In this document: piece by piece, positions 40 to 58,065 of the stretch
How the letters are laid out: each line of letters opens with the position of its first letter
How positions within the stretch are numbered: position 1 is the stretch's first letter
Origin: Glycine soja
Lineage: Eukaryota; Streptophyta; Magnoliopsida; Fabales; Fabaceae
Length of the DNA stretch: 64,000 nucleotides
Reading direction: 5' to 3'
Assembly: GCF_004193775.1 (NCBI RefSeq)
Contig: NC_041002.1
Location: 40,524,038 to 40,588,037 of the forward strand
Notes under the pieces: generated by a model
Databases searched by the model: none
Told to the model about the DNA's origin: nothing
The model's input: the letters and a program-made list of their open reading frames with translations, nothing else
Made by a program: the position numbers and the translations under genes

Positions 40-3909
<3,870 letters not shown>

Positions 3910-3977
3910 TGAGTCCTAAGCTTCACAATCAGACCTTACAACGGCCAAGCTGAAGACTAAGAAAACTGAAACCACAG

Positions 3978-8691: not shown

Positions 8692-11600
8692 TTAAGATTT
8701 GCAAAGTCCTAACTTCTGTCTGAGAAACTCAAACTTGCTAACTGGCAATGGCTTGGTAAACAAATCTGCAACCTGGTTCTCTGTTTTGCAGTAGACAAGA
8801 CTAACAACTCCACTTTTCTGTACTTCTCTTACAAAGAACAACTTGATATTAAAATGCTTAGTTTTCCCATGAAAGACAGGATTATGGGAAATAGCTATGG
8901 AAGCTTTGTTGTCAACAAACATATTTGGGCTATCATTCTGCTCCATGTTAAAATCAATCAAAAAAAATTTCAGCCACAAAGCTTGATTGACAGCTGTTGC
9001 AGCAGCAACAAATTCAGCTTCTGTTGTACATTGAGCAACATTCTATTGTTTTTCGAGCTCCATGAGAAGACACCTGATCCAAAGCTGAAACTTACCCTGA
9101 AGTACTTCTCATATCATCAATTGAACCACCCCATTCACTGCCAGAGAAGCCTATCAGCTTGAACTTTTCAGTTTTCTTGTACTTGATGCCAAAATTACAA
9201 GTTCCTTTAACATATCTAATCACCCTTTTTGCAGCCTTGAGATGCATTTCACTTGCACAATGCATAAACCGAGACAAAATGCTTACAACATTTAGGATGT
9301 CAGGCCGAGTCACTGAAAGGTACAACAAACATCCAATCATGCTTCTGAAGTATGCTTGATCTATCTTCTCAGTTCCATCTTCCTTGTAAAGCCTTTCCTT
9401 TTGATTCATTGGAGTGTTCATTTCTTTGCATTCTTCAAGTTTAAACTTCTTTAAAATCTCTTTGGCATACTTCTTTTGGCAAACAAAGACTCCTCCTTGT
9501 TTAATTTCCATTCCAAGAAAGAACATCATTAAACCAAGATCTGTCATCTCAAACACCACCATCATCTCTTTCTTGAACTTCTCCACAAGACTTAAGTTGT
9601 TACCTGTCACAAAAAGATCATCCACATACAGTGAAATGATAAGAATATCAGCTCCATCTATTTTGACATATAATGTTGACTCTAACAGACTTTTAGAGAA
9701 CCCCAAGTTCAGCAAAATGCTCATTTATTCTGTTGTTCCATGCTCTTGGAGCTTGTTTAAGCCCATAAAGAGCTTTCTTGAGAAGATAAACTTTATTTTC
9801 TTCTCCATCCTTTATAAAACCTTGAGGTTGCTCAACATAAATTTCTTCTTGTAGGAAGCCATTTAAAAATGTTGATTTAATGTCAAGTTGATAAATTCTC
9901 CAATTCTTTTAAGCAGCCACAGCAAGCAACAACCTGATGGTGTCTAACCGAGCAACTAGAACAAATGTTTCTGAGTAATCTACTCCAAAAACTTGAGCGT
10001 AGCCCTTCACAACGAGTCTTGCCTTATGTTTATTGATAGAACCATCGACATTAAGCTTTGTTTTGTATACCCATTTGACTCCAATCACATTTCTATCTTG
10101 AGGTCTTTCTACAAGATGCCAAGTTTGGTTTTTCTCTATCATTGATAGGTCGTCCTTCATTGTAACAACCCAAACTTGATTTTTCTTGGCTTCTTCATAA
10201 TTTTTAGGCTCACATACAACAATTTTACATCTGTCATAGTTATCAGAAAGCAGTCTAGTACCTCTAATAGGAATATCATCAACTAACTCATTCTACCAGC
10301 CTTCAATTTCGGAACTTGGTGCAGGAAATTTCAAGTTTAGATGTTCAGAAGCATGATTTATCATCTTTGGATCATCCCAACTCCATTCTTCATCTTCTGC
10401 AAAGTGCACATCCCTACTAACAACAAATTTTCCAGTTTGTGGTTGGAAGATTTTATGGGCTTTGCTTGTTGTATTGTAGCCTATAAAGATGTTTGGTGAT
10501 GCTCTTTTATCCAGCTTATCTCTCTTGCTGGCTAGAACATGAGTAAAACACAAACAACCAAATATTTTAAGAAATTTCAATGATGGTTTGTAACCATACC
10601 AGGCCTCAAATGGTGTTTGATTCATCAATGCCTTTGTGGGAAGTCTATTTTGAAGAAAAACATATGTATTTGCTGCCTCCGCCTAGAACTTCTTTGGCAA
10701 ATTCTTCTCATATAGCATGCATCTTGTCATCTCTAGTATATATCAATTTCTTCTCTCACTAACTCCATTTTTTTGTGGAGTATAGGGATTCGTGAGTTGA
10801 TGTTCAATGCCTGAATCTTCACAAATTAGATTGGATTTTTAAGACGTGTACTATGCTCCATTGTCTGACCTCAGAATTTGAATTTTTAGACCACTTTCAT
10901 TACCAACCTTGACTTTAAACTTCCAAAAAATTTCAGCCACCTCTGATTTGTACTTGAAGAAAAAAATCCAACACATTCTGGTGAAGTCATCAACAAATAT
11001 AATGTAGTAAATATTACCTTTTAATGAAGGAGTCCTTTGTGGCCCTACAACATCTGTGTGAATCAATTGCAACTTTCTTGACGCTCTCCATGTTTCCTTT
11101 GGAAAAGGTTTTTTGTTTTGCTTTCCAAATTGACAAGCCTTGCAAATTGAAATTCGATCATTAAGCTCAGGAACATCAAGTGCCAACCCTTTTTTAGTTA
11201 ATTGCTGCAACCCTTGTCGATGATAATGCCCAAGCCTCTTGTGCCAGATTTCTAAGAGATATTCCTTGAGCGAGAAAACATCTTGCTCCTCCTCCAATGG
11301 ATTTAGAGTAAAACTTTTCCCTTTCATTTTCACCTTGAAAATATCTTGACCAACTGCATCTTTTATCAAGCAATATTTGTCTTCAAAAATAACTTTAAAT
11401 CCTTTATCAATCAATTGACCAACACTTAGCAAACTTTGGTCAATTTCAGGAACGAAGAGAACGTCAAGAATAAGCTTTGTGCCAACATAGCTTATGATTG
11501 CAACTGTCCCCTTTCCTTTGACTGAGATAGAATCGCCATTTCCAATTCTGACTTTGGTGATATTGGTTGGTCTCAAATCTCTGAAGAGTGCTTTGTCAAA

Positions 11601-12617
11601 AGTCATATGGTTGGTACAACCACTATCAATCAACCAACTTTCACTAGATTCATTACTCAAGTAACAAGTGGCCACAAACAGTTGATCTTCCTCCTCTTGA
11701 TTAGCAGTCTGAGCTCCTTCACCTTGATGATTTTTATTGTGGCAAATCACAGCTTCATGCCCCATTTGGTTGCACTTATTGCATTTTGCATCTTGTCTCT
11801 TCCAACATCTGAATGGAGGGTGACCTATTTTGCCGCAATGCTGACAAGGTGGGTAACTTTTCTTTTTACCATTTCCTTTGTTGTAATTATTTGCATTGCT
11901 TTCATTTTTGGTTGGATGATTCTTCTTGTAGTTTTTCCTTTTCCAAGTTCCAGCTTGTTAGCTCTTCGCTGGTAGAGCACCTTCAATAGAATGTTCTTGC
12001 CTCATCAATCTTCGTTGCTCTTGGGCTTGTAAGGCATGTATCACTTCTGCCAAAGTGATCTTGGACAGATCCTTTGTGTTCTCCAATGAAGCAATAAATG
12101 CTTCGTACTTTTCCGGCACTGTTACCAGAATTTTCTCGACAATTCTGGAATCAGCAAAATCACTTCCCAACAACTTTATCTTGTTGGCAATACTCAACAA
12201 TTTGTTTTAGTATTCTTTGATTGTCTCAGATTCTTTCATTCTTTGCAGCTCAAATTCCCTCCTTAAATTAAGTACCTACATACCTCATATTTTTTCGTCC
12301 CCTGCATATTCTTCCTTCAAAAATTCCCAAATTTTTTTGGGTGATTTGAGAGTCATGATTCTGGTCTGGATCATTTTTGAAACACCAACAAACAAGCATG
12401 ACTTCACCTTTGCCTTCCTCGTTTTTCCTTCTTTGTGATTTTTTGTTTGGGCCATGGTGGGATTTTCAGGCAGCGATTGAACAACGTAATTCTCTTCCAC
12501 AGCATCCCATAAATCTAGTCCCTCTAGATAAGACTACATTCTCACTAACCATAGGTCATAACCTTCGCCATCAAAGAGTGGAAGAGCGACTTGAGAGTAA
12601 TTTCCTTCACCTTCCAT
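8692..12617 (-). pseudogene. Copia gag-pol polyprotein, broken
   Basis: The start codon is at 12617-12615. Pieces in order: Gag (UBN2-type) at 12285-12617 and 11958-12200; two CCHC zinc knuckles (CQHCGKIGHPPFRC and CNKCNQMGHEAVIC) near 11740-11870; aspartic protease WLIDSGCTNH near 11640; integrase with HKRLGHY and LRSDNGA (10851-11300); RT opening block (9909-10160); YVDD polymerase box (in 9092-9724); and RNase H ending at 8692 with VADLFTKPLP. Breaks seen: a stop after Gag near 11957, a stop directly after the integrase RSDNGA, and several frame changes between 10293 and 9725. Non-functional as it stands. Confidence 0.88.
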
Positions 12618-15289: not shown

Positions 15290-15298
15290 CTTATTGAC

Positions 15299-15560
15299 GG
15301 CAAAAACACCAAAAGGGGGCAGTTTTACAAATTATTTACCAAAAAGGGGCTTTTTGCAATTATTTCTGGGGGGGGGGGGGTATGTTTTTTTTATTGCAAA
15401 GCGCCCCCAGACAGGCGCCTCCACTGTGCACGTGACGCGTGGCACAGGCGCGGCACACGAGGGAACAACAGGGTAGCGCCCCTGACGCAGGCGCGTCTGA
15501 TAGCGCCCTGCCACTGGACGCGACTGGTGGTGCCCCTGCACCAGGCGCCTAGGGTCCAAG
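15299..15560 (+). repeat. Left terminal inverted repeat of the PMD Mutator-type element
   Basis: Matches the right end in inverse orientation, with differences mainly in a G run at about 15367-15380 and in small indels. The outer 80 bp contain repeated AAAAGGGG-like blocks separated by T-rich sequence. The inner part is GC-rich, with many GCGCC/GGCGC motifs and a CACGTGACGCGTGG block. Confidence 0.9.
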
Positions 15561-15743
15561 CGCGACCCCCCCACCCCCTCCTCCATCCCGATAAAGGGTC
15601 CCCCCCCCACCCCACCCCACCCCCTCTTGGTCCCCCCCTCACCCTACTCCCTCCTTCTCCCCCAAGCTCTCCTTTGTCCCAGGCTTGTTCCCCCCCCCCC
15701 CCCCTCCCAACAGTCCATTTTTGTTTCCCTTCTCCCCAGCAAG
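15561..15743 (+). promoter_or_regulatory. C-rich tract, possible 5' leader exon of the PMD gene
   Basis: A pyrimidine tract with runs of seven or more C, ending at CAGCAAG followed by GTATGTT, a good donor at 15744. A matching acceptor, TACAG, ends at 16801, ten bases before the PMD start codon. A 5' leader intron of about 1.06 kb from 15744 to 16801 is therefore plausible, with transcription starting in or near the inverted repeat. This is inference from splice-site quality only. Confidence 0.35.
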
Positions 15744-16049
15744 GTATGTTATTTTTTTAATTGTTTCAAATTTATTTATTTTTTATAAATTGTTATATTT
15801 TATTATTTGTATGTTTTTTTTTGCAGGTTGTCATCTTGTGTACAAGAAAATTATATTAACTCACAACACAACAAGTTTATTTTTTTATCTTTATATATTT
15901 TTGCTGTTAGTTTAATTTTTTTTATTATTTTAGTTATTTTTTATTAATTATATAACAAATTGTTTATTTGTGTTACGGTTGTTTAATTTTTAGAATATAA
16001 ATTTAATTAAGATTCATAATAAATATTACTGTAATATTGTTATTAGGCG

Positions 16050-16307
16050 TATTTAAAAAAAAGGCATATTATTATTATATATAAAAAATATATATATACG
16101 TGTTCTTATATTATTTTCTGAAATTGGTGAAATTGAGGAAAAAAATATATATATTTTCTGAAAGTTGAGAAAAAAAATCCTCAATGTGAAGAAATTATTT
16201 TTTATTATATATATATATATATTGAAATTGCTGAAATTGACCAAAAATATATATATATTTTCTGAAAATGAAGAAAAAAATTTTCTCAATGTGTAGAAAT
16301 TATTTTT

Positions 16308-16384
<77 letters not shown>

Positions 16385-16473
16385 TTTTGAAATTGTTGAA
16401 ATGGAGAAACAAAAATATATATATTTTCTGAAAATGAAGAAAAAAAATTTCTCAATGTGTAGAAATTATTTTT

Positions 16474-16536
<63 letters not shown>

Positions 16537-16610
16537 TTTTGAAATTGTTGAAATGGAGAAAAAAAATATATATTTTTTCTGAAAATTAAGTAAAAAAATT
16601 CCTCAATGTG
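16050..16610 (+). repeat. Imperfect tandem repeats with expanded AT microsatellites
   Basis: A unit of roughly 110-160 bp (a TTGAAATTGTTGAAATGGAG-like block, a TTTTCTGAAAATGAAG block, a CTCAATGTG-AGAAATTATT block, then (AT)n) recurs about four times. The (AT)n parts, at about 16310-16381 and 16478-16532, vary most in length. Confidence 0.8.
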
Positions 16611-16614
16611 AAGA

Positions 16615-16738
16615 AAATTTAAATTACGAGTTTGTTTCTAAAATTTAAATTACGTGTTCGTTTCTAAAATTTAAATTACGTGCTCGTTTCTAAAATTTAA
16701 ATTATGTGCTCGTTTCTAAAATTTAAATTACGCGTACG
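16615..16738 (+). repeat. 26-bp tandem repeat, about 4.5 copies
   Basis: TTTCTAAAATTTAAATTACG recurs at 16635, 16661, 16687 and 16713, exactly 26 bases apart, with small changes in the variable TGCTCG part. Confidence 0.9.
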
Positions 16739-16811
16739 TACTTGACTTTATTTATTATTTATGATATGTGTGACTATTAATTTTTTTTTCTTTCTATACA
16801 GGAGTTTTAAT

Positions 16812-19078
16812 ATGGCTAGTTCGTCATCTTCTCATCATTATGACATGGCATCTGGACCATTAGAGGATGATTTATTGTGGATGCAAAAAAATCATGTATC
16901 CCAACATATTTGGAATGGTGCTAATGATAGGACGTTAAAAATTCGACGAGCCACACCACTGTACAATCATAGAGAAGCACCGCCCGAAGAAATTATTCCT
17001 CTATTACAAATTTCGGGTTTGTACCCGATAATGAAATTGGCACAGTTGAAAGTGAATAGAGCATTGGTGAATGCTTTTATTGAAAGGTGGAGGCCAGAAA
17101 CGCATACATTTCATTTGAAGTGTGGAGAGGCAACTATTACACTTCAAGATGTTTCTGTGCTACTTGGTATTCCTGTGGATGGAAGACCATTAATTGGAAA
17201 TACAAATATTGACTGGTTTGAGTTGTTTCATGAATTATTGGGTGTCATGCCTGACGATGCTGCAATTGATGGGAACTCAATTAAATTGAGTTGGTTGCCT
17301 TCTCATTTTGCAAATATTCATGATTTTACAGGCAACCAAGAAGGCCTTGAAAGATTTGCTCGTGCTTGGATCTTACGATTCATAGGAGGGATAATGTTTG
17401 TTGACAAAAGCAGCAAACGGGTGCATTTGAAATATTTGCAGTTTCTGAGAGACCTTAGAGAGTGCAACAGTTATGCATGGGGAGCTGCTGTTTTGGATAA
17501 CCTTTATAGAGAGATGTGCATCGCAACAGACTATAATGCAAAATCAATAGGCGGTTTCACTCTCTTGATTCAATTATGGGCATCGGAACGATGCCCAACA
17601 TTAGCCCCCTCAGTTATTCCTCCACAACAACAAAACGCGCCACTTGGTTACAGGTATACTTCCCTTTACTATTTTGAATTCATTATTAATAAACATGTTT
17701 GGTTGATGTTAATCATTATTCTATGTAACATTTTATTTTGTTATTTAATTTTTTGTGAAGATGGTTGGGAGGTGAATTGCATCACATAGGCAATGATAAT
17801 TTAATTGAGATTCGTTGTAAATTAGATGTCATGAAACGCGACGAGGTAACAATTTTGATGTTTGTTTATTAAATGATGTTGTATTTCTTAATTAATTTAT
17901 TAAATTTAACTTTTATATGCAGTTTGTATGGGTCCCTTATGCTGGACATGTGGAAATGAATTTGAGTCAAGTTTGTTTTTTTGGGTCTGTATTATGGACA
18001 TGTATCATATCACTTATTTGTTTTCAAAAAGTGGAATGGCACCAGCCGGATAGAGTCATGAGACAATTTGGAATGCAACAACCTATTCCGGGACCAGTAA
18101 TGCAACCCAACAACATACATGACTTGACATTAAAGGGAAAGGAAGGAAAAAATTGGATGCGACTAATGCAACCCGCGCTTAATGAATGGAATAGTCGCTA
18201 TGAAAGGAGAGTAGAGCAGACGCCGCCACAAACAGGGACCCTCAGTCTGAACTCTGAATATATGAGGTGGTACAGGCGTAAAACAAAAGTTTATGTTGAC
18301 CCAAAACATGCAAGAAGAGGACTATTGGTATACATTGTCCATTATAATTTAGAAAAGAATGTTGCGCTTATTTAAGATTATTTTAATAACTATTCATTTA
18401 TTTTCTATGCAGGGTGAAATCGCCGAAACACTACATTTTATGGTGTCTCCTATTGGGAGAAGGGTTTGTACTTTTGACGATTTACTGCCATGTATCGAGA
18501 AGATCACTCTTTTGTCTAAGGAAGAGGATAGGATACTTGAGGCACATGAAGATGCTCCCCCTTCTCAGCCACAATTTGAACATCAACAGTTTAATATACT
18601 ACGGCAAAGTGTGGAGACTCGAGGCTTAGCGCGACGTCAGGAAACTGTTGATGCAACAACATATAGTTTGCCTCCGATGCCAAAACGACAACATGGAATG
18701 TATTACACACCGCCGACATTCACCCAAGAACCGTCTCAGATGTCGCCGATGTATTCATACCCACATGATTTTCAACCATGGTATAGTTTTGCAGGCATAT
18801 TTGGGTCCTCTCCTTCTTCAACAGAAACTCCTTCATTTACCCAAAGTGGTCAAGTATCGACCCCAAATGCCCCACTTGCTGGTCCGTGGAATGTACCTGG
18901 AGATATACCCGACATGGACGACTTATTAGGGGTCGATTTACGTCATGATTTCTCTGCCGAGGCTGACCAAGTGGATGAAAGGGCGAATCCTAGAAGAAGA
19001 AATCCTGATAGGGCAGCTAGAAATTGGGACCGGCCATGTGGGACTTCGTCGCGGCATCACAGACATAGTGATGATTGA
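16812..19078 (+). CDS. Plant mobile domain (PMD, MAIN/MAIL-like) protein, four exons, intact
   Basis: Exons 16812-17653, 17761-17845, 17923-18327 and 18413-19078 join with correct phase and GT/AG borders into 1998 bases (665 aa) without an internal stop. The start is the ATG in AATATGGCT. Residues about 55-390 match the PMD fold: HREAPPEEIIPLLQISGLYP near the start, then the CGEATITLQDVSVLLGIPVDG block, a WLP motif, and FVWVPYAG after the exon 2/3 border. The C-terminal third is low-complexity and proline/serine-rich, with an acidic DMDDLL patch and an arginine-rich RRRNPDRAARNWDR tail. Host PMD proteins MAIN and MAIL1 of Arabidopsis are nuclear and act in silencing and genome integrity with the phosphatase-like PP7L. 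Here the gene is the only cargo of a Mutator-type element; whether it serves the element or is a passenger is not shown. Confidence 0.88.
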
Positions 19079-19445
19079 TTAATAATGAGTTTACATTTTT
19101 TTCGCATGGTTTAACATTTTCATGTACTTTGTATTATTTTTTTTCATGTGTTTCATATTGTCATGTACTTTGTATGATTTTTTTTCATGTTAATTTTATA
19201 TTATTGTCACTTCAACGTTTCAATCTTATTGTGCAATGCTTTTAAAATAAATAAAAATAAATAACCATAATGTTAATGACACATAAACCAAAAGTGATCT
19301 CTAACGTAATTTAATGGCCAAATAAAAAAAGATTTGACCAAATCAAAAAGCATTTTAAAACATTTTAGGATTTCAAAATGTATTTTAGGTGAAAATGTAT
19401 TTTATTGAAAATGTACTTATATATACTTCAAAAAGAGAGAATAAT
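19079..19445. other. 3' flank of the PMD gene
   Basis: AT-rich with repeated TTTTTTTCATGT stretches (19100-19200) that may include the polyadenylation region. No coding sequence. Confidence 0.5.
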
Positions 19446-19690
19446 AAAATATAAAAAAATAACAAATAATACTAATAATTAAAATGAAAAAAATTTAAAT
19501 TTTTTATAAACAAATTAAAAAATATACAATTTAGAGTATATAAAAAATAATCTTATTGAAATTTTGGGGTGGGGGGTGTGGGAATATAAAAAAATAACAA
19601 ATAATACTAATAACAAAGATGAAACAAAATTTAAATTTTTGATAAACAATATAAAAAATATAAAATTTTGGGGTGGGGGGTGGGGGGTGT
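19446..19690 (+). repeat. Direct duplication of about 115-130 bp ending in a TGGGGTGGGGGG block
   Basis: Sequence starting AATATAAAAAAATAACAAAT at about 19448 is repeated from about 19584. Both copies run through AATACTAATAA and end in a TTTTGGGGTGGGGGG tract (about 19562 and 19668). Confidence 0.8.
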
Positions 19691-19809
19691 GGGAAGAGAC
19701 TGGGGGTGTGAGAAGAAGAGGCTGGGGGGGGTGTGGGAAGGGGCTGGGGGTGTGGGAAGAAGAGACTGGGGGGGTGTGGGAAGGAGGGGGGGGGGGGGGG
19801 GGGGGGGGG
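19667..19809 (+). repeat. G-rich tandem array, G-quadruplex candidate
   Basis: Short units of the type CTGGGGGTGTGGGAAGAAGAG repeat four times and end in 24 consecutive G. Many runs of three or more G with short loops satisfy simple quadruplex patterns. A matching C-rich tract lies at the other end of the element (15561-15715). Confidence 0.8.
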
Positions 19810-20051
19810 CTGCCCTGTGCTAGCCGTAGCGCCTGCAGCAGGGGCGCCACCAGTAGTGCCTGACCCCTGGGCGCTATCAAAGGCGCCCGCGTCAAGGGCG
19901 CTACCTGCTGTGCCACGCGTCACGTGGACAGTGGAGGCGCCTGTCTGGGGGGCGCTTTGCAATAAAAAAACAGACCCCTTTGGAAATAATTGTAAAAGAG
20001 ACCCTTTTTGGTAAATAATTTGTAAAACTGTCCCCTTTTGATGTTTTTGCC
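19798..20051 (-). repeat. Right terminal inverted repeat of the PMD Mutator-type element
   Basis: Inverse copy of 15299-15560, including the AGACAGGCGCC and CACGTGACGCGTGG blocks. It is preceded by a G-rich tract that ends in a run of 24 G (19786-19809). Confidence 0.9.
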
Positions 20052-20060
20052 CTTATTGAC

Positions 20061-21271: not shown

Positions 21272-24200
21272 TCACTGAGGATTGGGAGGACGACCGTTAG
21301 CAGCACAAACCCTTGAGCCCCATTCAAGCAATTCTTTGCTTGTGTCATCCTTGTGAACAATCACTTCAATGAAGCACAAGCAATCTTTCTTGTCACCTGT
21401 TGCTGTCTGAATTGCCTCAACAAGCTCCTCTTCACATGTAACCTGAAATAAAGCATGCATAAAATAATTATATTAATTAACAGCTATGAATTTTTCAGAA
21501 TAATGTGTAAGTACTATGTTAAGAATCTCACCTTAGTGGTCCAGCATTTTCCTTCACCATTGTGGATTGCATCAACCAAGCCAGTGTAGTTCCAGTTCTT
21601 AATCACATTGTATGGCCCATCATGAATTTCAACTTCAATGGTGTATCCACCATTGTTTATCAGGAAGATGATGGTCTTCTGCTCATTTCGCAGCATTGTG
21701 GACACATCCTGAGCTGTCACCTACACAGAATTTAAAAAGCAAGATAAAAACACCATAACAGTTCAAAAACTGTTGGGTAAAGGAAAAAAAAATGCATCAA
21801 CTAGAATTTAACATTAAATTTCCTTTTTTATTTATATTTCCTATAGATATTCTTCTTAGGCAATCCTATTCAAAGTATAATGAAGATACTAAATGTAGAC
21901 CCTTCTTCCAATAGGAATTCAAATCATAGTCACATTGTGGGGACTAGTCTCTTCTATTAGACTCGGGTTGGTTAAAATTTGGAAAATTATTTGAGTATAT
22001 CTAAATAAAAAAAATTTTCTTTATGATTGAAATCATGCTTAAGTAGTTATATATGCAAGACAAACCTGAAAGCTTCCATCACCAATGCAAGAAATCACTC
22101 GCTTCTCAGGAACCGCCTGAGCATAACCAAGTGTAGCACCAACAGACCAACCAATTGAACCATATTGCATTTGGAACTCATACCTGTCAACATATCTTTT
22201 CTTCAAAACTGAAAAAAAAAATACTACATAAAGTAAAGTGACACACCAAAAAACACACTCTCTATTGTACTTACCCACACCCCTTTGGCAACTTCAGCTT
22301 CTGGCAGTTAAACCAAGAGTCCCCTGTCTCAGCAATCACCGCGGTTTCGCCAGACAGCATATCTTGTATATGCTTAAACAGAACATTAACCCTCAAAGGC
22401 TCTCTGGGTTCAGCTTTCACAGGCTTTCCCTCAGGGACAAAAATCCTTGAGTAATTTTCATAAGCAGTGTTGTTGTGCTTGAGACGCTTTGCGAGTTCCC
22501 TGAGGAAGTCCTTCATGAGGACACACCCGAATGCGGGTCCATTGGAGATCACAACGCGCTCCGGCTGCACGATGATGGCCTTCTCCTTCTTGAGGAGGAG
22601 TGAGTACCCAACAGAGCTGTAGTCATTGAAAATGGGGCCAGCAAACAAGTATGCATCAGCAGATTCGACGATTTCAGCACAGAATGCGGTGCTCACAGCA
22701 CCCCAGAATGTGCCAATGAAGTGGGGTTTGTGCTCCGGGACTAGTCCCTTGGCTGATGGCATCACAGCAAATGGATAGCCACATGCATCAGCAAGCTCAA
22801 CAAATGCATCACATGCATTAGCCACCCTTAGTTTAGGACCTCCAACCATTACAGGCTTCACTGCCTTGTTTAGGAACTCTGCTGCTGCTTCCACTGCAGC
22901 CTCCAACCCCATCTTGTTACTCAATCTGCATAAAACACCAATAAATAGAATCAATGTGACAAAAATAAAACCAATCATTAAAGTTTCACATGATTGGATT
23001 GTTCACAAAGTCATCCCAGAGAGAGACCACTTTGTGTTTATGGTTTCAATCAATCTTTGTATGACACATATACTAAATTTTCAATTCATGACAAATAATT
23101 GATAATATTTGATTATGTGTCACGTAGAGATCACATAAAAATTAAATAGAAAAACTATATACAAAATCTTACCTTGGAGACAGAGAAAATGGAACCGGCT
23201 CGCGACTGAATGTGGGGTGAGGAATGCCAGGCAAGTTACAACTTATGCTTATGTACACAGGCTTGCTTTCTTTCAGGCAGGTTGAGATTGCAGTATCAAT
23301 CAATTCATGAGCATCTTCTATGTTATTCACCACAGCCTATCAAACCATATGCACAAAAATTAAAAAGAAAATTGCATTGTCTTTATTTCAGTGTTCATGG
23401 AAACAAACAGACACTAGTAAACCAAAACATACTACTATAAACTGGCAAACCATTCATATTGAGGGCACGCATTCCACGTACAATAGTAAACCAAAACATA
23501 CAATTATTTTTATAGAGAATACTATTCTAATAGAATAGGATTAGAAAACAGATTTAGAAACACCCTTAAACACTAAAATAATCCTTCTAACACTCATTGA
23601 TGTGACATAAAATTAAGATTACTGGTTAAAAAGCTGATTGGTTAAAAAAAGGAAAATTAATAAAAACAATTAAAAAAAGATAAACATAGATTTGAGATAT
23701 TGACCTGATAGCATGTAACTGTTTGGAAGCACCTGAGCTCCTGGCTGAAATCGGACAATCCAATGGTGTGATGCAAGATTCTGTTGGTACCAAAATCGTT
23801 CGTATTGGGCCCACCCACAATACAGATCAGCGGAAGATTCTCGCTGTACGCGCCCGCAATCGCGTTGATTACACTCAGTCCTCCAACAGTAAACGTGACG
23901 ACACACGCGCCCACGCCCCTGCACCGCGCGTAGCCGTCAGCAGCGTACCCGGCATTGAGTTCGTTACAACATCCTATGTTTTTCAACTGCGGCTCCGCGA
24001 TGAGGTGGTCGAGGAGGGTGAGGTTAAAGTCACCCGGCACGGAGAAGACGTCTGTCACCCCCACCTGCATTGCATGACCAGTTATAAGATTAGATTAGTG
24101 ATTGATGACTGAGTTATAATTAAGATTCATTTAGTAAATTTAAATTTTTTTTATTAACAAAAACTAATAAACTAACAATTAATTAATATTGATGAATAAG

Positions 24201-25851: not shown

Positions 25852-27101
25852 TTAATCATCTTCTAGTGAGATGCCAAAACAATCATCCTCATTCTGATAG
25901 AAAGGATCATCATGTTGGTCATCAATGTCCTCTGACGATTCGGCCTCCTTCTTTGAAGGTTCTTTGAAGGTTCTTCTTATTCTTCTTGTTGAAGCAGCTA
26001 GAGAACTTCCTTGAGGTTCTGGGCAAGACTTTCTTTGGATTTTGAGCTTGCCAAGAATGCCGCGAGTTGAGATTTCTGATTCAGAAATAATGATGTCTCT
26101 GGATCAACAGGTTTGAGGAATTCAGGGTGGCTCTGGAACTAGATCTTGACTTGGTCTGGAGCAGCCTTTGAGGTATCAAATTGTGACCACCATTTTACAA
26201 AAGCATGTCTTTGTAACGACAGATATTGCTTGTTGTTTTCGGTTTTCCCATACCTGTATTGAAATGAAAAGATCCATGACAAAGCAAAGCTGAAAAAGTA
26301 CTTTAAATCGGCTGGAATTCTTGATTCCTTGTTGTTGAATAATTTGTTGAACTGATGAAATCCCTATTGGACTTCTTCTGGGAATATTTGTGGTATTGGT
26401 CCAAAATAATTCCACCATTGGAGAAACCAGTTTGGAAAATTGTAAACAATATTGTTTTTGAAGTAAATCAACCACGAATACTTGAATTTATTATTTTGGT
26501 GCCAAAACACATTGGTCCAGGCGTCAATGTAATCCCAATAAGTGTATCTTGTTGGGTCAAAAAGTGCAGAAAACTTCTTGGGTTGGTTTAGATTGGTTCC
26601 GTAATGCCGTGGCTGCATTACTTTCAGGATTTGGATTGTGGAGTGGGTGTTTAGGCTCGGGTCTTTTGAGTCCTTGAAATGTTTGATGGATACTAAATTT
26701 GTATCCACTAGAATGAATTCATAGAATTTTCTAGTTTTATTGAGGGTTGTTGGCCTATAATGAAACCCTTGGGGGAAGACTTTGGCAGTTGCTTTGAAAG
26801 GATTCTTATCCCAATATTCTGGCTCCATTTGTAGGACATTAAAGAATTTGTTTTTTGAAATATAGTTGTTGGTGGGTTGTGGTGTTGGGTCTTGTTGAGC
26901 CAACGTTCGTTTTTCTTTCTGGTTACAAACTGTCTTAGTTTGTTTGGTCTTTTGGATTTGTTTTTGGAGGTCTATTTCAGAATCATCGTCTGATTCTGAG
27001 GCCATTTTTGCACAGGTTTTCTTGGCTAATTTTGGGATTTTGGTAAGGCCTATGTCTTCTAAGGCCTGAAGAGTTTGAATTGACCAGGCATAGTCAGCCA
27101 C
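25852..27101 (-). pseudogene. Last pararetroviral frame, unknown function, broken
   Basis: Reads from ATG at 27101 to a stop near 25854 with at least one in-frame stop (26364-26366) and a likely frame change near the acidic C terminus. The first part is lysine/serine-rich and acidic. The middle is rich in tryptophan and aromatic residues (for example YTYWDYIDAW and FPNWFLQWWNYFGP), followed by an HAFVKWW segment and an acidic tail near 25855-25935. No known domain was recognised. Its place after RNase H and before the promoter matches an additional downstream gene of some endogenous caulimovirids. Confidence 0.6.
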
Positions 27102-27336
27102 AGTCTATTTTGCTGTTACTGGTTTGGGGGATTCCTGAGTGGATGACTCAGGTTTGACAATAGCTATTTGGGTTAATGACCCTTCAAATTTTGGTTTCTA
27201 GGTTGATGACCCAGTCTGGGTAGGTGAACCAGAGGATGATGAGGTTGTTTTCTTGATTACTGACTCTGGTAGAGCCAAGAGAACTTCTTTTCCTTTACTA
27301 CTTGTTCTACCTCCTCTCCCGGAGGAGCTGGACACC

Positions 27337-27720
27337 TTAGGAGGCATTAGTATTTTTCTGTAAAAATTCATGTGTGAGGTAGTCAGGTAGAGAATTTGAG
27401 GTGCCCTTTATATATTCTATGTCAAAATCAAAGACACTTAAAATTGTTTGCCATCTTGCAAAAATTTGTTTTGAGACAAGGTTTTTAACATCTTTTTGTA
27501 AAATATATTTGGCTGATTTACAATCAACTCTGATTAAAAAGTTTTGGTTTAATAAATCCGATTGAAATTTGGAAATGCACAAAACAATTGCTAAAGCTTC
27601 TTTTTTAGCAGTTGAATATTTTAATTGTGCAGGATTCTAATGTTTTAATGTATATGCAATGACATGATCTTGACCATGTACTCTTTGTTTGAGGATGCCA
27701 CCATAACCTATGTCTGATGC
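27337..27720 (-). pseudogene. Pararetroviral RNase H region, broken
   Basis: Weak start with TDASDIGYGG near 27715, an in-frame stop near 27640, then an open block to 27337 with the VDCKSAKYIL segment and SLPDYLTHEFL end that close the caulimovirid polymerase. Confidence 0.75.
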
Positions 27721-27917
27721 ATCGGTTTTGACAATTTTAAATGCTTGTGGAATAGGAAGATACAAACATTTTATGGATTGGACCTTAAGTTTGATTTCTT
27801 TAACTATTTTTGTATGGAGGTCAGACCAAGGAGACGGATTTTTCTTCAGCCTGTCATGTGACGGCTTGACAATATTGTTTAAATAGGGGACAAATTCTCC
27901 TACACAATTTAAACAAC

Positions 27918-28610
27918 CTAGGAATCTTTGTAACTGGTTTTGTCTAAGATTTGGTTGGGAAATCTGCTAGCAAACTCTATTGACCTTTCTATTGGAATGA
28001 TTGTACCTTGATATATATGGTGACCAAGGAATCGAATTTGAGTTTGGAAGAGATTTATTTTTGATTTGGAGACTTCCAAACCATTTTGTTTGATAATATG
28101 GATGAAAGTCTGGAGATGTTTGAAATGTTGGTCAATGTTTTGGGAAAAGATTAAAACATCATCTATGTAGACAATGACAAATTTTGAATAAGGATTAAAA
28201 ATATCATTCATAATTTTTTGAAACTCTGAAGGGGCATTCTTCAGTCCGAATGGCATTACATTCCATTCATATTGCCCGAAAGATACAATAAACGTTGTTT
28301 TGTACCTATCTGACTCTTGGATTTGGATTTGCCAAAATCCAGATTTCATATCAAATTTTGAAAATATTGTTGCAGAATTTAATCTGTTAAGTAAATATTT
28401 TTTGTTAGGAATAGGGTACCTAATCCATTGTAATGCTTGATTTAGTGGTTTGTAATTTATGACTAAGCGGGGTGTTTCATGCTCAAGCTCTGATTGTTTG
28501 TTGACATAAAAAGCCGCACAGGACCATGGACTTTTGCTTTTTCGGATTAAACCTTTATCAAGCAAATCCTGAATTTCCTTTTGACAGTATTGAAGAAGTT
28601 CTTCATTCAT
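27918..28610 (-). pseudogene. Pararetroviral reverse transcriptase
   Basis: A 230-codon block with the caulimovirid order: PWSCAAFYVNK, RLVINYKPLNQ, YPIPNK, SKFDMKSGFWQI, WNVMPFGLKNAPSEFQ and the catalytic YIDDVLIFS box. A stop and frame change at 27918 separate it from the connection and RNase H regions. Confidence 0.9.
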
Positions 28611-28885
28611 TTGAATTGGCCTGGCTTTTGTGGGAATTTGTTTTTCCCTAAAGTTTTTCTCATAAGGGAGTAAGGGAGATCAACAATATGATTCTTTCTA
28701 TCCCAAAATGCATGTGGCAAATCAGAACAGACATTAGATTCGATATGACTTAATAAAGATTGAATTTTTTCTTTTACTTGGGGTTTTCCCAGTTGTATTT
28801 GAATATTATTAAAAGATACTTCTTCCTTTAAGAAGTTAATTTGGTTAATTTTATTCTCTATAAGATTTATATTCCTGGAGATTGG

Positions 28886-29290
28886 TTAATTAGAAAAATT
28901 AAATATAACTTTTCTTCCTAAATAATTTGTAGTTATTCCTTCATTAGATATTTGAATGGGAAACAAGGCTCTAATGAAGGGAGTTCCTAAGATTACTTTG
29001 TTTTTAAGGTTTTTTACCAGAAGAAAGTTTGTGTTAATCCCAAGACCTTGATTTTCGATGATTGCATTTGATAATTTAAAACTAATCTTTAATTTTGAGC
29101 CATTTGTTGTGCTTAATTTTTCTGAGGTTTTCTCAAAGAATTTTGTAGGAATTAACCTTTCTAAGATACAGTTTGAATCAGCCCCTGTGTCAAATAGGGC
29201 CATCGTTTCTAAAACGAAATCATTAATAATTATTTTTATGTTTATGTAAAATTTTTGAATTTTAATCTTGTTGAATAATCCCATAAACAT
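28886..29290 (-). pseudogene. Pararetroviral aspartic protease region
   Basis: Contains the active-site block ALFDTGADSNCI and, about 70 residues on, VILGTPFIRALFP, the normal pairing in caulimovirid proteases. It is joined in frame upstream to an acidic, glutamine-rich linker. Confidence 0.8.
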
Positions 29291-29507
29291 ATCATCTTCT
29301 AAATTTTCTGGTTGGTTTTCTTCATTGTTGTTGACGCTTTCAGTATCACTATCTTCCTCAAGTTGAGAAAGAATGATCTGATGAATTTCTTGTTGTTGGT
29401 GAAGTTCTTTTACTTCTCTTTTTAGATTGTTTATCTCTGTTTAGAGATCTTGGATTGTCGTTGGTTTGGTTGAAGAATTTTCTAATCTTTTGAATATGTT
29501 ACTCACA

Positions 29508-30977
29508 TCAAAATTTATTATTTGTAATAAAATCCTTTTGCCTGGGTTTTACCTCTAATGTCTTTTTGAGTTTTTCCAGAAAAACCTTCTTTTCTTGGGG
29601 GTTAGGTGTAGAATTGATTGCTTCAAACAAGAGATCTTGTTCTCTTGTTAGAGTATTGATTTGTCCATCATCATCTGTTGACGATAGTTGGTCATCTTGT
29701 TGAATTAAGTTTAGGTTTTCATCGGAAAGTACGGAGGATGAAGTTTCTGTTTCTTCTTCCTCCGAGGTTTCGATAAGCAAATTGTTTATTTGCTCTTCAA
29801 TTGATGGTTCTAAGTTAAGGTTTCTTAACTTCTTTTTAGTCTACAATATTTACTAATGTGGCCTTGTTTTCCACAATTGTAACATGTTATCTTTGATTTT
29901 GCCTTTTGTCTAGGATTTTCCATTTCTCTACTGGTTGAGGGTTTGTGTGAGTATCTCCTTCTTGGAAATCTCTTTTTATTGACTGGTTTATTCTCATGGA
30001 TTTCTTTTCTAGAATTTTGTTTTTTCTTTTGTTTTGGACAGGCCGGTAGACCAAATTGTTCGTAGAAGGAACCTAAATCTTTCTTTGTTTGAGCCTTTTC
30101 TTTGGCTAATTGCCTCTGAATTTTTTCATCCTAACAAATCTTTAAGGCTACCTTTTAGACATAAGAAATTAATTGACCATAGCTTAAGCTCTCATATGGA
30201 ATATCTCCATTGGCAGATTGACTACGGATTTTATCTCTAACCTTGTCTCCTAATGATCTGGGAAGACCGGCTATAAATTTTTCTTTCCAAAAAGGTTGTT
30301 GACTATCTTCTCTGGTGTAAACCCTAGTTAGAAAAGTATCTTTGTACCACCTAAAGTCTGCTAAGGTTCTACACTTAAGGTTTGACAACAACTCTGCAGA
30401 CCTATCTTTCCACAGAGATGGGTCTCTAATGAAGTGTTGCGCTATTGTAAAAATTAATGTATTAACAGCGTCAGGAATCTCCTTATCTTTGTCATTATTA
30501 ATGACTTTTCCATTGAGATCCGTCTTGATCGCGCTGTAAATTTTTTATTTTTCCTCGTTCGTGAGATAATTATCCCACCAACCTTTTAGAAAATCCTGCC
30601 ACTAAGATATCTATAATGGTTTCTTCTTAACATTCATGGGAGGTTTGGTAAGTTGTAGCTACCATGGTCATATGTTGGAGTGTATTCATGATGTTATACT
30701 CCATTTGTGTATCTATGTTCCATTCATAGATGTTGTTTGCACTAAAACTTTTAAAATTGTTTTCACCTCTTTCTTCTAATAGAAGGTCAGGGGCAGTTGG
30801 ACGTTGATAATATAATTTAGAGGTTGTTTTCCAGTGCTTGGAATTAATTGGATTTATATTCTTTTCCGATACTGATCCTATCTCGGTTGCATTATCTGAG
30901 TTTTGGTCACTATCTTCATTAATAACATTAATTAATTTGGAGGTACTTCTTGTTACCATTTTGGAAGTATTTTCCAA
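29508..30977 (-). pseudogene. Pararetroviral coat-protein-like region with CCHC zinc knuckle
   Basis: Starts at 30977. Open blocks (30627-30977, 30155-30391, 29508-29780) are separated by a few stops. The region carries the CP-like core with GLPRSLGDKVRDKI, a basic stretch, and the knuckle CYNCGKQGHISKYC near 29840-29882, followed by an acidic coiled region. In caulimovirids the knuckle marks the C-terminal part of the coat protein. Confidence 0.75.
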
Positions 30978-30980
30978 GGT

Positions 30981-31691
30981 TTAGGGAGTTTCTGGAATGA
31001 CCTTAAGTAAACTACCAATTTTGTTTAGTAATTCACTATGATTATCACCTACCCCTTCAATTAAGGATTTAGTTTTTCTAAGTTCCCTAATTTTTCGTTT
31101 AGCCTTCTCACTAACTTTGAAAGGTTTGAATAATGGTTTTTCAATGGGAATGCTTGGCGAAGCTTCCTCAACTGATTTTTGTTTAGGAACTACCTTAGTT
31201 TTAATGGTTTCTCCTAAAGCTTCTAAATATTTATTGGTGTAATTTGCCTGTTCCATTAGGCTCTTAATATCTTTGGAGGTTACTTCCTCATTGACATATT
31301 TTGTCTTGAATGGAATTGCCATGACAGGTTTATTGTTACTGTCTTTGACATTTGGTAGTTGATATTGTGTTGCGGGAAGTAATTCCGATTGGATTAACTC
31401 ACCATCTTTCATTTGCCAGTTTGTTATGACATTTGTTGTTGGATCACCTATGATGTCCTGCTTCCATGGGTAATCTATATCCTTTCTGATGGTATAAGCA
31501 TGGAACCAATCAAAGAAAAGGACATTAATTTTTACTCTTTCGACAAATTCATAGAACTTGTCTTGGATTTGTTTTCTGTTTGCACCCTTGTAATGTTGGA
31601 AAAACCATCTCCTTTGAAGTTCATTCTCCGGAGAATAGAAGTCTTTCTTAAGGGTTTCCTTATCAATGCTAAAGTTGTCAGATAACATCAT
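30981..31691 (-). pseudogene. Pararetroviral frame between movement and coat proteins
   Basis: A 236-codon open block with no internal stop. It has an aromatic N-terminal half (WFFQHYKGANRKQ, FFDWFHAYTIRKD) and a lysine-rich C-terminal half. It follows the movement-protein block after a frame change near 31695-31740. I cannot assign a domain; it may be the C-terminal part of the movement protein or a separate virion-associated protein. Confidence 0.6.
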
Positions 31692-31743
31692 AAGGTTCCA
31701 TAGAAGAATAAGTTGGGGATTGGATCGACTTCTGGTCGTCCTC

Positions 31744-32650
31744 CTATTCTTGGTTGTACGTAGTTCTAGGTATACTAGAAGTAGTATCTAATCCTTGGAG
31801 GTTTACAGTAGGGAACTGGTTATGTGACTCAGATCTGGTTAATCCTATTGGAATTGAATGAGTTCTAACCGAAAAAGACCTTTTGGATGACTCATATTCA
31901 GACATAGAGGCTTCTATTCTTGATGAAAAAGAATTTCTCCTATTGAAGGTTATTTCTACCTTACCGAAGTTATCTTGCTTAATTTGCTCTATGGTTGGAG
32001 CGGGTCGGGGAACAGACGGTGTGGCCTTATCCATAACCCATTTTTCGGGAAGAGTTACCTCATCCCATTTTATTGTTCTTGGGAGAGAAACGTTAGCCTG
32101 TCATATCAGTGATAAACAAAGTTGTATCTCCTCTTTGAGGTTTTAACAGGACTCTAGAAGCACAAGTATTCAAGACCTTGTACTAAATCCTGTAAATCAA
32201 TGTTGTTGGAATTGATCCTTCTTTCATGTCGAGGCCATGAAAGTGGGTATTTAGAAACAGAGAGTCAAGAATGTTTCTGTCCATCAGACTCACGGTTTTG
32301 TTTGGGTAACAATTGAAGTATATTGGACCTTGTCTTAGGCTTGTTTCTATTGTTCCAATTAAGGAATCTTCAAACTTGTTATGCCTAATATCTCTAAGGC
32401 ACATTAAGACTGCAACATCGATGCCCATATCAATTAAAGGCTTGATGGCTACTTGGACACAACCTATGTGTAAATATTTGTATTTACGGCTATGTTCATA
32501 AATTGAATTTTTTTAGAGCAGATGAAATTCTTCCCCTATGTCTTGTCCTAGAGGAATATTATTTTCTACCATTTTGATTATATAATCAAAATTATGTTTG
32601 TCTTTAATTGTCTCAGGAACATACAAGGTATCCTTAGGGATTTCTGGGAT
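31744..32650 (-). pseudogene. Pararetroviral movement protein (30K superfamily), broken
   Basis: The core block 32183-32428 contains MCLRDIRHNKFEDSLIGTIE, then GPIYFNCYPNKTVSL and a C-terminal YRI, the typical caulimovirid movement-protein signature. The frame continues upstream to about 32650 and downstream through 31744-32034 with intervening stops. The role in virus is cell-to-cell transport through plasmodesmata; this copy is interrupted. Confidence 0.75.
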
Positions 32651-56498: not shown

Positions 56499-58065
56499 GG
56501 CAAATTTACGCAAAGGGGTCACATTTAAAAACTATTTACGCAAAGGGGTCTATTTTGTAAATATTTACGCAGGGGGTCACTTTTTGGATGGAACCCGCTA
56601 ACGGTAATGGCGAGAAAGCATGAGCCGACATTGCCAACAGCGATACAGTGCACTGGCTGGAGGGTGCCGCCAGTGGCACTAGCGATACTGGCTGACGTGG
56701 AGGGAGTCGCTTTCTCCATTGGCGAGACAGCCACACATAGGGTCTCGCCTCTCCCATTGGCGAGACACCTTCACGGAGTTGTTGAAGTGGTTACGAAATT
56801 TCTGCGAGCGTGTTCGGCGGCGACGACGGAGAGGTGTTTGAGAATGCTGGTGGTGTTGGCCACGTGCGTGGAGGGTCGGGCGGTGATGGCGTAGGAGCCG
56901 TGGTGTGTTGCGGCGATGGTGGAGAGGATTACGAAGGCGTCAAAGGCTGCGGCGGCGGACGCGGTGGCAGTACTGTGGAGCTTGTGCTGTTTATGCAAGA
57001 ACGTGAAGGTGAGAGATGACGTGGCAAAGCGAAATGGCGTCGTGGTGGTTTTGTTGGTTATGCAGAGGGGGTGGGAGGAGCACGTGAGAAGCATGTGCAT
57101 GGATTTGATTAAGGTTTTGAAGGGTGTGCGTAAGAACGGGTTGCGGTTGGAACTAGGATGCTATGACACAAAAACCACTCATATAAAACCTTGCTAATGT
57201 TGTAACATTGATTAAGTTGAACCAACTTTTTGATTTTTAGTGAATAGTTGAACCATCTTTTTAGCATGCAACAAAAGAATGTTTTATGTTGGTTAACTTT
57301 GCTCTTATCGATCTTTTCTTTTTAGTATTAGAAGGAAAGAAAGAAATGGAGAAAAAATGTATATGGTAGAGAGAATAATATTTGAACATAACAAAGTAGA
57401 AGGAAAACAAATTTCATTTGATATCAGTATTTTTTTTTTCAGTTTTTTAATTTGGGTATACAGTTTTTGTTTGGATATAGATTAAAGATAAGTTCTAGCA
57501 AATCAAGGTCACGATGATAAGTTTTTATGACCTAAGTACTTTTCTGTTTTTTGGTCTTTAGGATTTAATTAAATGCTTTGATGCAGAAATTTTTAGAGTA
57601 AGAAGTGGTTTTGAACTTTTGGGTTTTTGAGAAAAAGGTTTTTCATATTCGTTCAACCAGAAATAGGTTCTATAGTTTTCAGAACTTCATTATAAGACTG
57701 GAGAAGAAACCGTGTTTGTTAACTTGGAGTGGCCCTCTGAAACAATGCATTGTGCGCAATTATCCTTGTATTTTCTCATATAAGAAATTGGAGACCCGTG
57801 AAGGTGTCTCGCCAATGGGAGAGGCGAGACCCTATGTGTGGCTGTCTCGCCAATGGAGAAAGCGGCTCCCTCCACGTATCGCTAGTGCCATTGGCGGCAC
57901 CCTCTAGCCAGTGCACTGTATCGCTGTTGGCAATGGCGGCTCATGCTTTCTCGCCATTACCGTCGGCGGGTTCCATGCAAAAAGTGACCCCCTGTGTAAA
58001 TATTTATAAAATAGACCCCTTTGCGTAAATAGTTTTTAAATGTAACCCCTTTGCATAAATTTGCC
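56499..58065 (+). mobile_element. Pack-MULE with captured U-box ligase fragment
   Basis: 1567 bp with inverted repeats of about 275 bp (56499-56775 and 57793-58065) that begin GGCAAATTTACGCAAAGGGG and end in the inverse. Ten bases TCATGGAGTA flank both ends (56489-56498 and 58066-58075). The interior is a piece of a host U-box E3 ligase gene; there is no transposase. It is inserted in the CACTA element at 52636-61682. Confidence 0.92.
56775..57197 (+). pseudogene. C-terminal part of a PUB22/PUB23-like U-box E3 ubiquitin ligase (captured)
   Basis: One reading frame with a single internal stop (56892) gives VVEVVTKFLRACSAATTERC, RMLVVLATCVEGRAVMA, then AAMVERITKASKAAA, AVLWSLCCLCKNVKV, and the family-typical end CYDTKTTHIKPC followed by a stop at 57197. 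This corresponds to the last armadillo-like repeats of plant U-box ligases of the PUB21/22/23 type, which ubiquitinate targets in stress and immune signalling. The U-box and N-terminal repeats are absent, so no ligase activity is expected. The coding strand is GC-rich, unlike the AT-rich surroundings, and it starts exactly where the left inverted repeat ends. Confidence 0.82.

Follow-up and report, generated by a model that had tools for sequence, protein, structure and literature searches.

A Mutator-like transposon family of Glycine soja with a plant mobile domain gene and no detected transposase

A 64,000-nucleotide stretch of Glycine soja DNA (contig NC_041002.1, positions 40,524,038 to 40,588,037), which we call the window, contains at 15299–20051 a Mutator-like element (MULE) whose single recognised gene encodes a plant mobile domain (PMD) protein. 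PMD is a domain of unknown function that is shared by transposons and proteins of host silencing (PMC7156037, PMC5418596, PMC8616336). The element belongs to a family that has spread in this PMD-only form, and two-gene relatives carry PMD together with a MULE transposase (MURA). We put at about even the chances that this is a non-autonomous family that borrows its transposase and keeps PMD as an anti-silencing factor of its own, of the VANC type. If so, the usual picture of non-autonomous elements, in which ends are kept and genes are lost, would be reversed, and the gene retained would not be the transposase. The open-access literature searched yielded no description of a PMD-only family that has amplified.

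The element, its gene and its copies

How is the element built? Identical 9-mers (CTTATTGAC) directly border it on both sides. Its ends form inverted repeats of about 250 bp in which 201 of 230 aligned bases match, and in the outermost 57 bp the two ends reach 93% complementarity. Such long terminal inverted repeats, with a target duplication inside the 8–11 bp range, are those of a MULE; repeats and perfect duplication were both as the original prediction, made from the letters of the window, had described them. The features are as follows.

15290–15298, no strand: left target-site duplication CTTATTGAC, from sequence comparison of the flanks
15299–20051, no strand: whole PMD-only Mutator-like element, 4753 bp, from the terminal repeats and duplication; counterparts at L030–L037
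15299–15548, plus strand: left terminal inverted repeat, about 250 bp, from self-comparison
16614–16735, plus strand: a 26-bp tandem repeat unit, AAAATTTAAATTACGTGCTCGTTTCT-like, present about four times 5' of the PMD gene, read by eye
16812–17653, plus strand: PMD exon 1 with the start ATG, from the spliced open frame
17761–17845, plus strand: PMD exon 2, from the spliced open frame
17923–18327, plus strand: PMD exon 3, from the spliced frame and a genome search; 39 other scored places are 95–99% identical
18413–19078, plus strand: PMD exon 4 with the stop, from the spliced frame; in the structure model, it supplies the last part of the folded core and then a low-confidence tail
19216–20051, no strand: right arm 3' of the gene, two inverted copies of which make up the short members L038 and L040
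19829–20051, minus strand: right terminal inverted repeat, from self-comparison
20052–20060, no strand: right target-site duplication CTTATTGAC, from sequence comparison of the flanks

Removal of three GT...AG introns (107, 77 and 85 bp) joins the four exons into 1998 nt that encode the 665 residues originally proposed, with no internal stop. PF10536 covers residues 69–427 (E=1.8e-79; 267.9 bits against a cut-off of 34.9), which makes the protein a member of the PMD family. Self-comparison of the 64-kb window gave no further PMD copy. There are 825 homologues at E≤0.001, and the 120 of them that were listed are all from Glycine; the closest, at 96% identity, is a Glycine max protein named ‘serine/threonine-protein phosphatase 7 long form’. 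Glycine PMD proteins often bear this name, although a Pfam phosphatase domain is present in none of the 42 scanned, and some Glycine gene models join PMD to cyclin or COBRA genes. The annotation names (phosphatase 7 long form, MAIN-LIKE) point, as names alone, to the PMD-C clade of MAIN and MAIL.

Does PMD recur in other copies? An exon-3 search of the genome yielded 561 candidates, of which the best 40, the window included, were scored, all at 95% identity or more. With up to two mismatches allowed, the genome contains 182 matches to the terminal 20 bases and two to a reversed control, so the ends are not a matter of chance. Eight of the 40 places were fetched (L030–L037). All eight have the PMD-only layout. 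They align colinearly with the window element across the gene and on towards the right end, a stretch with no space for a transposase. Upstream of the gene, L032 contains about 2 kb of additional DNA. By script, both ends and a perfect 9-bp duplication were found in five (L030, L032, L033, L036 and L037), each duplication being different. In each of these five the two flanks have 10 bases in common, in the window element nine. The left end lies beyond the fetched region in L034 and L035, and the right end was unrecognised in L031.

Listed end matches, which gave a right end to 20 of the 40 exon-3 copies and a left end to 18, were also paired into 35 elements. Fourteen of these contain PMD exon 3 (4,556–6,395 bp) and one more carries PMD (L039, 4,494 bp); the remainder are 19 elements of 386–1,518 bp and one of 3,440 bp. 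The short members L038 and L040 (about 1.47–1.48 kb) are fold-back elements.

Two-gene relatives and the missing transposase

If the window element has no transposase, what do its relatives have? An element spanning L018 and the adjoining L029 is complete at 10,830 bp, with ends related to those of the window element and the duplication GAGAGAATA; none of the 35 paired elements reaches this length. Its PMD gene lies on the plus strand, and the minus strand carries four open transposase exon pieces in tail-to-tail orientation to it. The joined pieces match MULE, DBD_Tnp_Mut and SWIM above the Pfam cut-offs, and zinc-knuckle and PB1 more weakly.

The arrangement is common. When 117 scored PMD places (of 5040 candidates) were set against 150 scored transposase places (of 2414, and 95–100% identical to the query), a transposase lay within 12 kb of 57 PMD places, where 0.42 would be expected by chance. 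All 57 transposases are downstream and on the opposite strand, 863–6,337 bp from PMD; the other 60 places have no transposase in the scored list. Related elements with both MURA and PMD, which the original prediction had proposed to look for, thus exist. In maize MuDR, mudrA and mudrB have the same convergent layout; in the relatives described here the second gene is PMD.

MULEs in which PMD lies antisense have been described before (PMC6446971). Dupeyron 2019 describes the MUDR group as having ‘PMD in antisense for most of them’ and names a soybean element there, and gives for VANDAL ‘PMD and/or DUF in half the members’ (PMC6446971). The MUDR-group MULEs of its Table 1 share with the relatives studied here a MURA with SWIM, the antisense PMD, duplications of 9–10 bp and ends of 30–320 bp; the window family differs in that it has no detected MURA and spreads PMD-only. 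Ikeda 2017 reports PMD-C in MULEs of grasses and Amborella as fusions to the transposase, and speculates on an anti-silencing role (PMC5418596). There too PMD sits in a MULE, but in the legume studied here it is a gene of its own, convergent with the transposase, and there are transposase-less derivatives that amplify. Nicolau 2020 describes eudicot PMD-C as mainly genic (PMC7156037).

How was the transposase lost? L019 and L016 are 97–98% identical to the L018/L029 element and have lost the entire transposase by two different deletions, which also shortened PMD: L019 lacks the last nine codons and L016 most of exon 4. In the tree the window-type PMDs form a clade (support 1.0) apart from, but next to, the PMDs of two-gene elements, and the four-exon structure is common to both. 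The transposase has therefore been lost more than once, twice by deletions that can be seen and, we infer, once in the window family's old lineage; no transposase-bearing member with that family's exact ends was found.

Within the window element itself, nucleotide BLAST with the complete two-gene relative matched PMD and no part of the transposase, although a very diverged remnant would escape such a search. The first reading of the element as one without a transposase holds in this sense. None of its 22 open reading frames (ORFs) of at least 60 residues looked transposase-like, as judged by eye without a six-frame profile scan. None of the 150 scored transposase places lies near the 40 window-type places, where a more diverged transposase would be missed.

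Other PMD groups were also seen. Seven near-identical copies on six chromosomes (L009–L015; 97–99% in compared pairs), in which the gene lies next to long tandem repeats, each have a convergent transposase by coordinates, a recent burst of two-gene elements. A further multicopy type (L020–L023) has an open span of 643 residues, L020 and L021 being 97% identical, and large tandem repeats in L020; no MULE ends were found for it. One PMD protein of a different type (MESSEDPIIQV...) is encoded in both L002 and L012 (7909–8805); it is apparently genic in L002 and lies beside a MULE PMD in L012, possibly by duplication or capture.

Selection, decay and the role of PMD

Has PMD been selected, and is it still? 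Between subfamilies its dN/dS is 0.127–0.169 at dS 0.49–0.66; closely related two-gene copies, with few changes, range from 0 to 0.41. In nine copies of the PMD-only family, 258 differences from the family majority were counted per copy, and 163 of them are C:G>T:A changes (33 at 128 CG, 70 at 129 CHG and 60 at 606 CHH sites), a bias of the kind expected from CG and CHG methylation. When each event was counted once (n=189), deamination events fitted neutrality (29 synonymous, 76 non-synonymous, 17 stop; ratio 0.92, p=0.74). The non-deamination events, at 29 synonymous and 36 non-synonymous against 16.4 and 48.6 expected, gave a ratio of 0.42 (p=8e-4), and their wrong-frame controls gave 1.97 and 1.82, not significant. 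The distant open copy L041 (76 synonymous, 63 non-synonymous; 36.1 and 102.9 expected) gave 0.29. From the ratios of 0.42 and 0.92 it seems that PMD was selected while the lineage moved as a transposase-less element and that copies decay after silencing.

Stops interrupt PMD in seven of the eight fetched copies; L035 and the window copy are free of them. Against the majority the window copy has 10 synonymous and 18 non-synonymous changes and no stop. Its deamination changes (5 synonymous, 14 non-synonymous, 0 stop) are close to the neutral 5.0, 12.6 and 1.4, and its nine others lean synonymous (5 and 4, p=0.049). The 18 replacements include W258S, P339S and R520Q, at residues conserved in 32 of 38, 35 of 36 and 38 of 38 homologues. 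The open frame may be luck, and is no sign of present function: of the ‘intact’ gene first described, the frame stands but these three conserved sites are altered, and the dN/dS comparison proposed with it reveals selection in the lineage but deamination changes that fit neutrality in this copy.

What might PMD do? Its predicted structure resembles that of the anti-silencing protein VANC21 and falls within the VANC fold, which suggests a concrete role, to bind specific DNA and alter its silencing. The transposase of a two-gene MULE would act in trans on ends that are similar across the group, and could be borrowed, probably from those relatives. PMD, if VANC-like, would act only on the non-coding DNA of its own family and relieve silencing there, so that each family would need its own. 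Elements descended from two-gene MULEs with MURA and a convergent PMD could then still spread without MURA, provided that they kept PMD; after insertion a copy would be methylated and its PMD would decay. VANDAL MULEs with VANC likewise have a second gene beside a MULE transposase, as do the PMD relatives, and the likeness extends to the predicted fold, a trace of DUF1985 (E≤0.001 in 10 of 42 homologues) and repeats in non-coding parts (PMC5735166, PMC6419827). The tandem repeat at 16614–16735 is a possible counterpart of the repeated regions that VANC binds. The window element differs from VANDALs in its long inverted ends and in having no detected transposase, and its anti-silencing activity is a prediction. 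We found no report linking PMD to the VANC fold in the open-access literature searched; PMC6419827 and PMC8616336 mention both VANC21 and the plant mobile domain, and the passages on PMD consulted there make no link to VANC.

Could PMD instead be a mudrB-like accessory of transposition, serving in end binding, complex assembly or integration, with PMD-only elements supplying it and borrowing MURA? All 57 pairs are convergent, as mudrA and mudrB are. For mudrB, an apparent requirement in integration is described (PMC6446971). The predicted fold, however, matches VANC21, for which loss of methylation is the role that has been tested (PMC5735166), and not a recombination accessory, and we regard this as a minority possibility. 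PMD might also be a passenger from a two-gene ancestor, spread by a borrowed transposase and not yet decayed: the stops in most copies, the neutral deamination changes of the window copy, the survival of L016 and L019 as elements without the 3' ends of PMD and the 19 short PMD-less elements among the 35 would all suit it. We think it unlikely in view of the purifying selection on non-deamination changes within the family, with its wrong-frame controls, and of the ratio at L041. Chance capture is a very improbable origin. Host PMD genes of the MAIN and MAIL family exist and MULEs do capture genes (PMC5418596), and like a Pack-MULE the window element is a non-autonomous MULE with a non-transposase gene; but here PMD is a complete gene with a long history in the lineage, found in all eight fetched full-size copies and in two-gene relatives, so the element is not a Pack-MULE with a recently captured host gene. 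The 40 scored places contradict both the recent capture considered in the original prediction and the absence of PMD from other copies that would have made it a single accident, and the PMD clade adjoins the two-gene PMDs, with the same four exons and related ends. That a domesticated host gene has retained transposon ends is scarcely credible: the frame of the window copy is open and close homologues in Glycine carry gene annotations as phosphatase 7 long form, but the target duplication is perfect, the family is multicopy, and the copy has replacements at conserved residues and a neutral deamination pattern.

Several observations weigh against a borrowed transposase combined with an anti-silencing PMD. 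The alignments with VANC21 have modest TM-scores (0.26 and 0.45) at 8–11% identity, DUF1985 scores 17.6 bits in the window protein against a cut-off of 35.1, and a common fold alone proves no function. The host PMD proteins MAIN and MAIL1 promote silencing, the opposite sign (PMC5418596). The CG and CHG methylation mark on the copies means that PMD has not kept them unmethylated. L016 and L019 exist as elements with truncated PMD, and a helper transposase for the window end type (the GGCAAAAACACCAAAAGGGG end) was not found. Both ends were identified in 14 of the 40 exon-3 copies and not in the other 26, and in the end-pairing sample short PMD-less elements (19) outnumber PMD-bearing ones (15). 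Young two-gene pairs have raised dN/dS (0.22–0.41 in several comparisons). In the selection test, the copies were compared with their own majority sequence and chosen partly for visible ends, and 42 of the 189 events are common to more than one copy.

A benefit of PMD to the element, against silencing or in partnership with a helper transposase, as first supposed, is nonetheless favoured by the two-gene relatives, the selection and the VANC21-like model, though not by the open frame of the window copy. One genome contains PMD copies with open and with interrupted frames alongside two-gene relatives and short members without a gene, so the idea can be tested directly. We hold more tentatively, and on balance doubt, a wider proposal in which PMD and VANC would be one fold family of DNA-binding anti-silencing factors of transposons, PMD-only MULEs would outsource their transposase and MAIN and MAIL1 would be members recruited by the host.

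Other sequences in the window

A second element, of 1,567 bp (56499–58065), is flanked by a perfect 10-bp duplication, TCATGGAGTA, and its ends (GGCAAATTTACGCAAAGGGG...) are related ones; the window's list of ORFs of at least 150 residues has none in it, no other gene search having been made. On the minus strand, pieces at 26364–31787 include reverse transcriptase, aspartic protease and DUF7588 and together resemble an endogenous pararetrovirus. Copia-type retrotransposon pieces (RVT_2, Pol_BBD, gag_pre-integrs) lie at 9092–11957. A piece of a thiamine-pyrophosphate enzyme at 22271–23002, matching the central domain, resembles pyruvate decarboxylase, as judged by eye. At 2593–3915, the minus strand carries an exon of a receptor-kinase-like gene of the S-domain type (B-lectin, S-locus glycoprotein, PAN).

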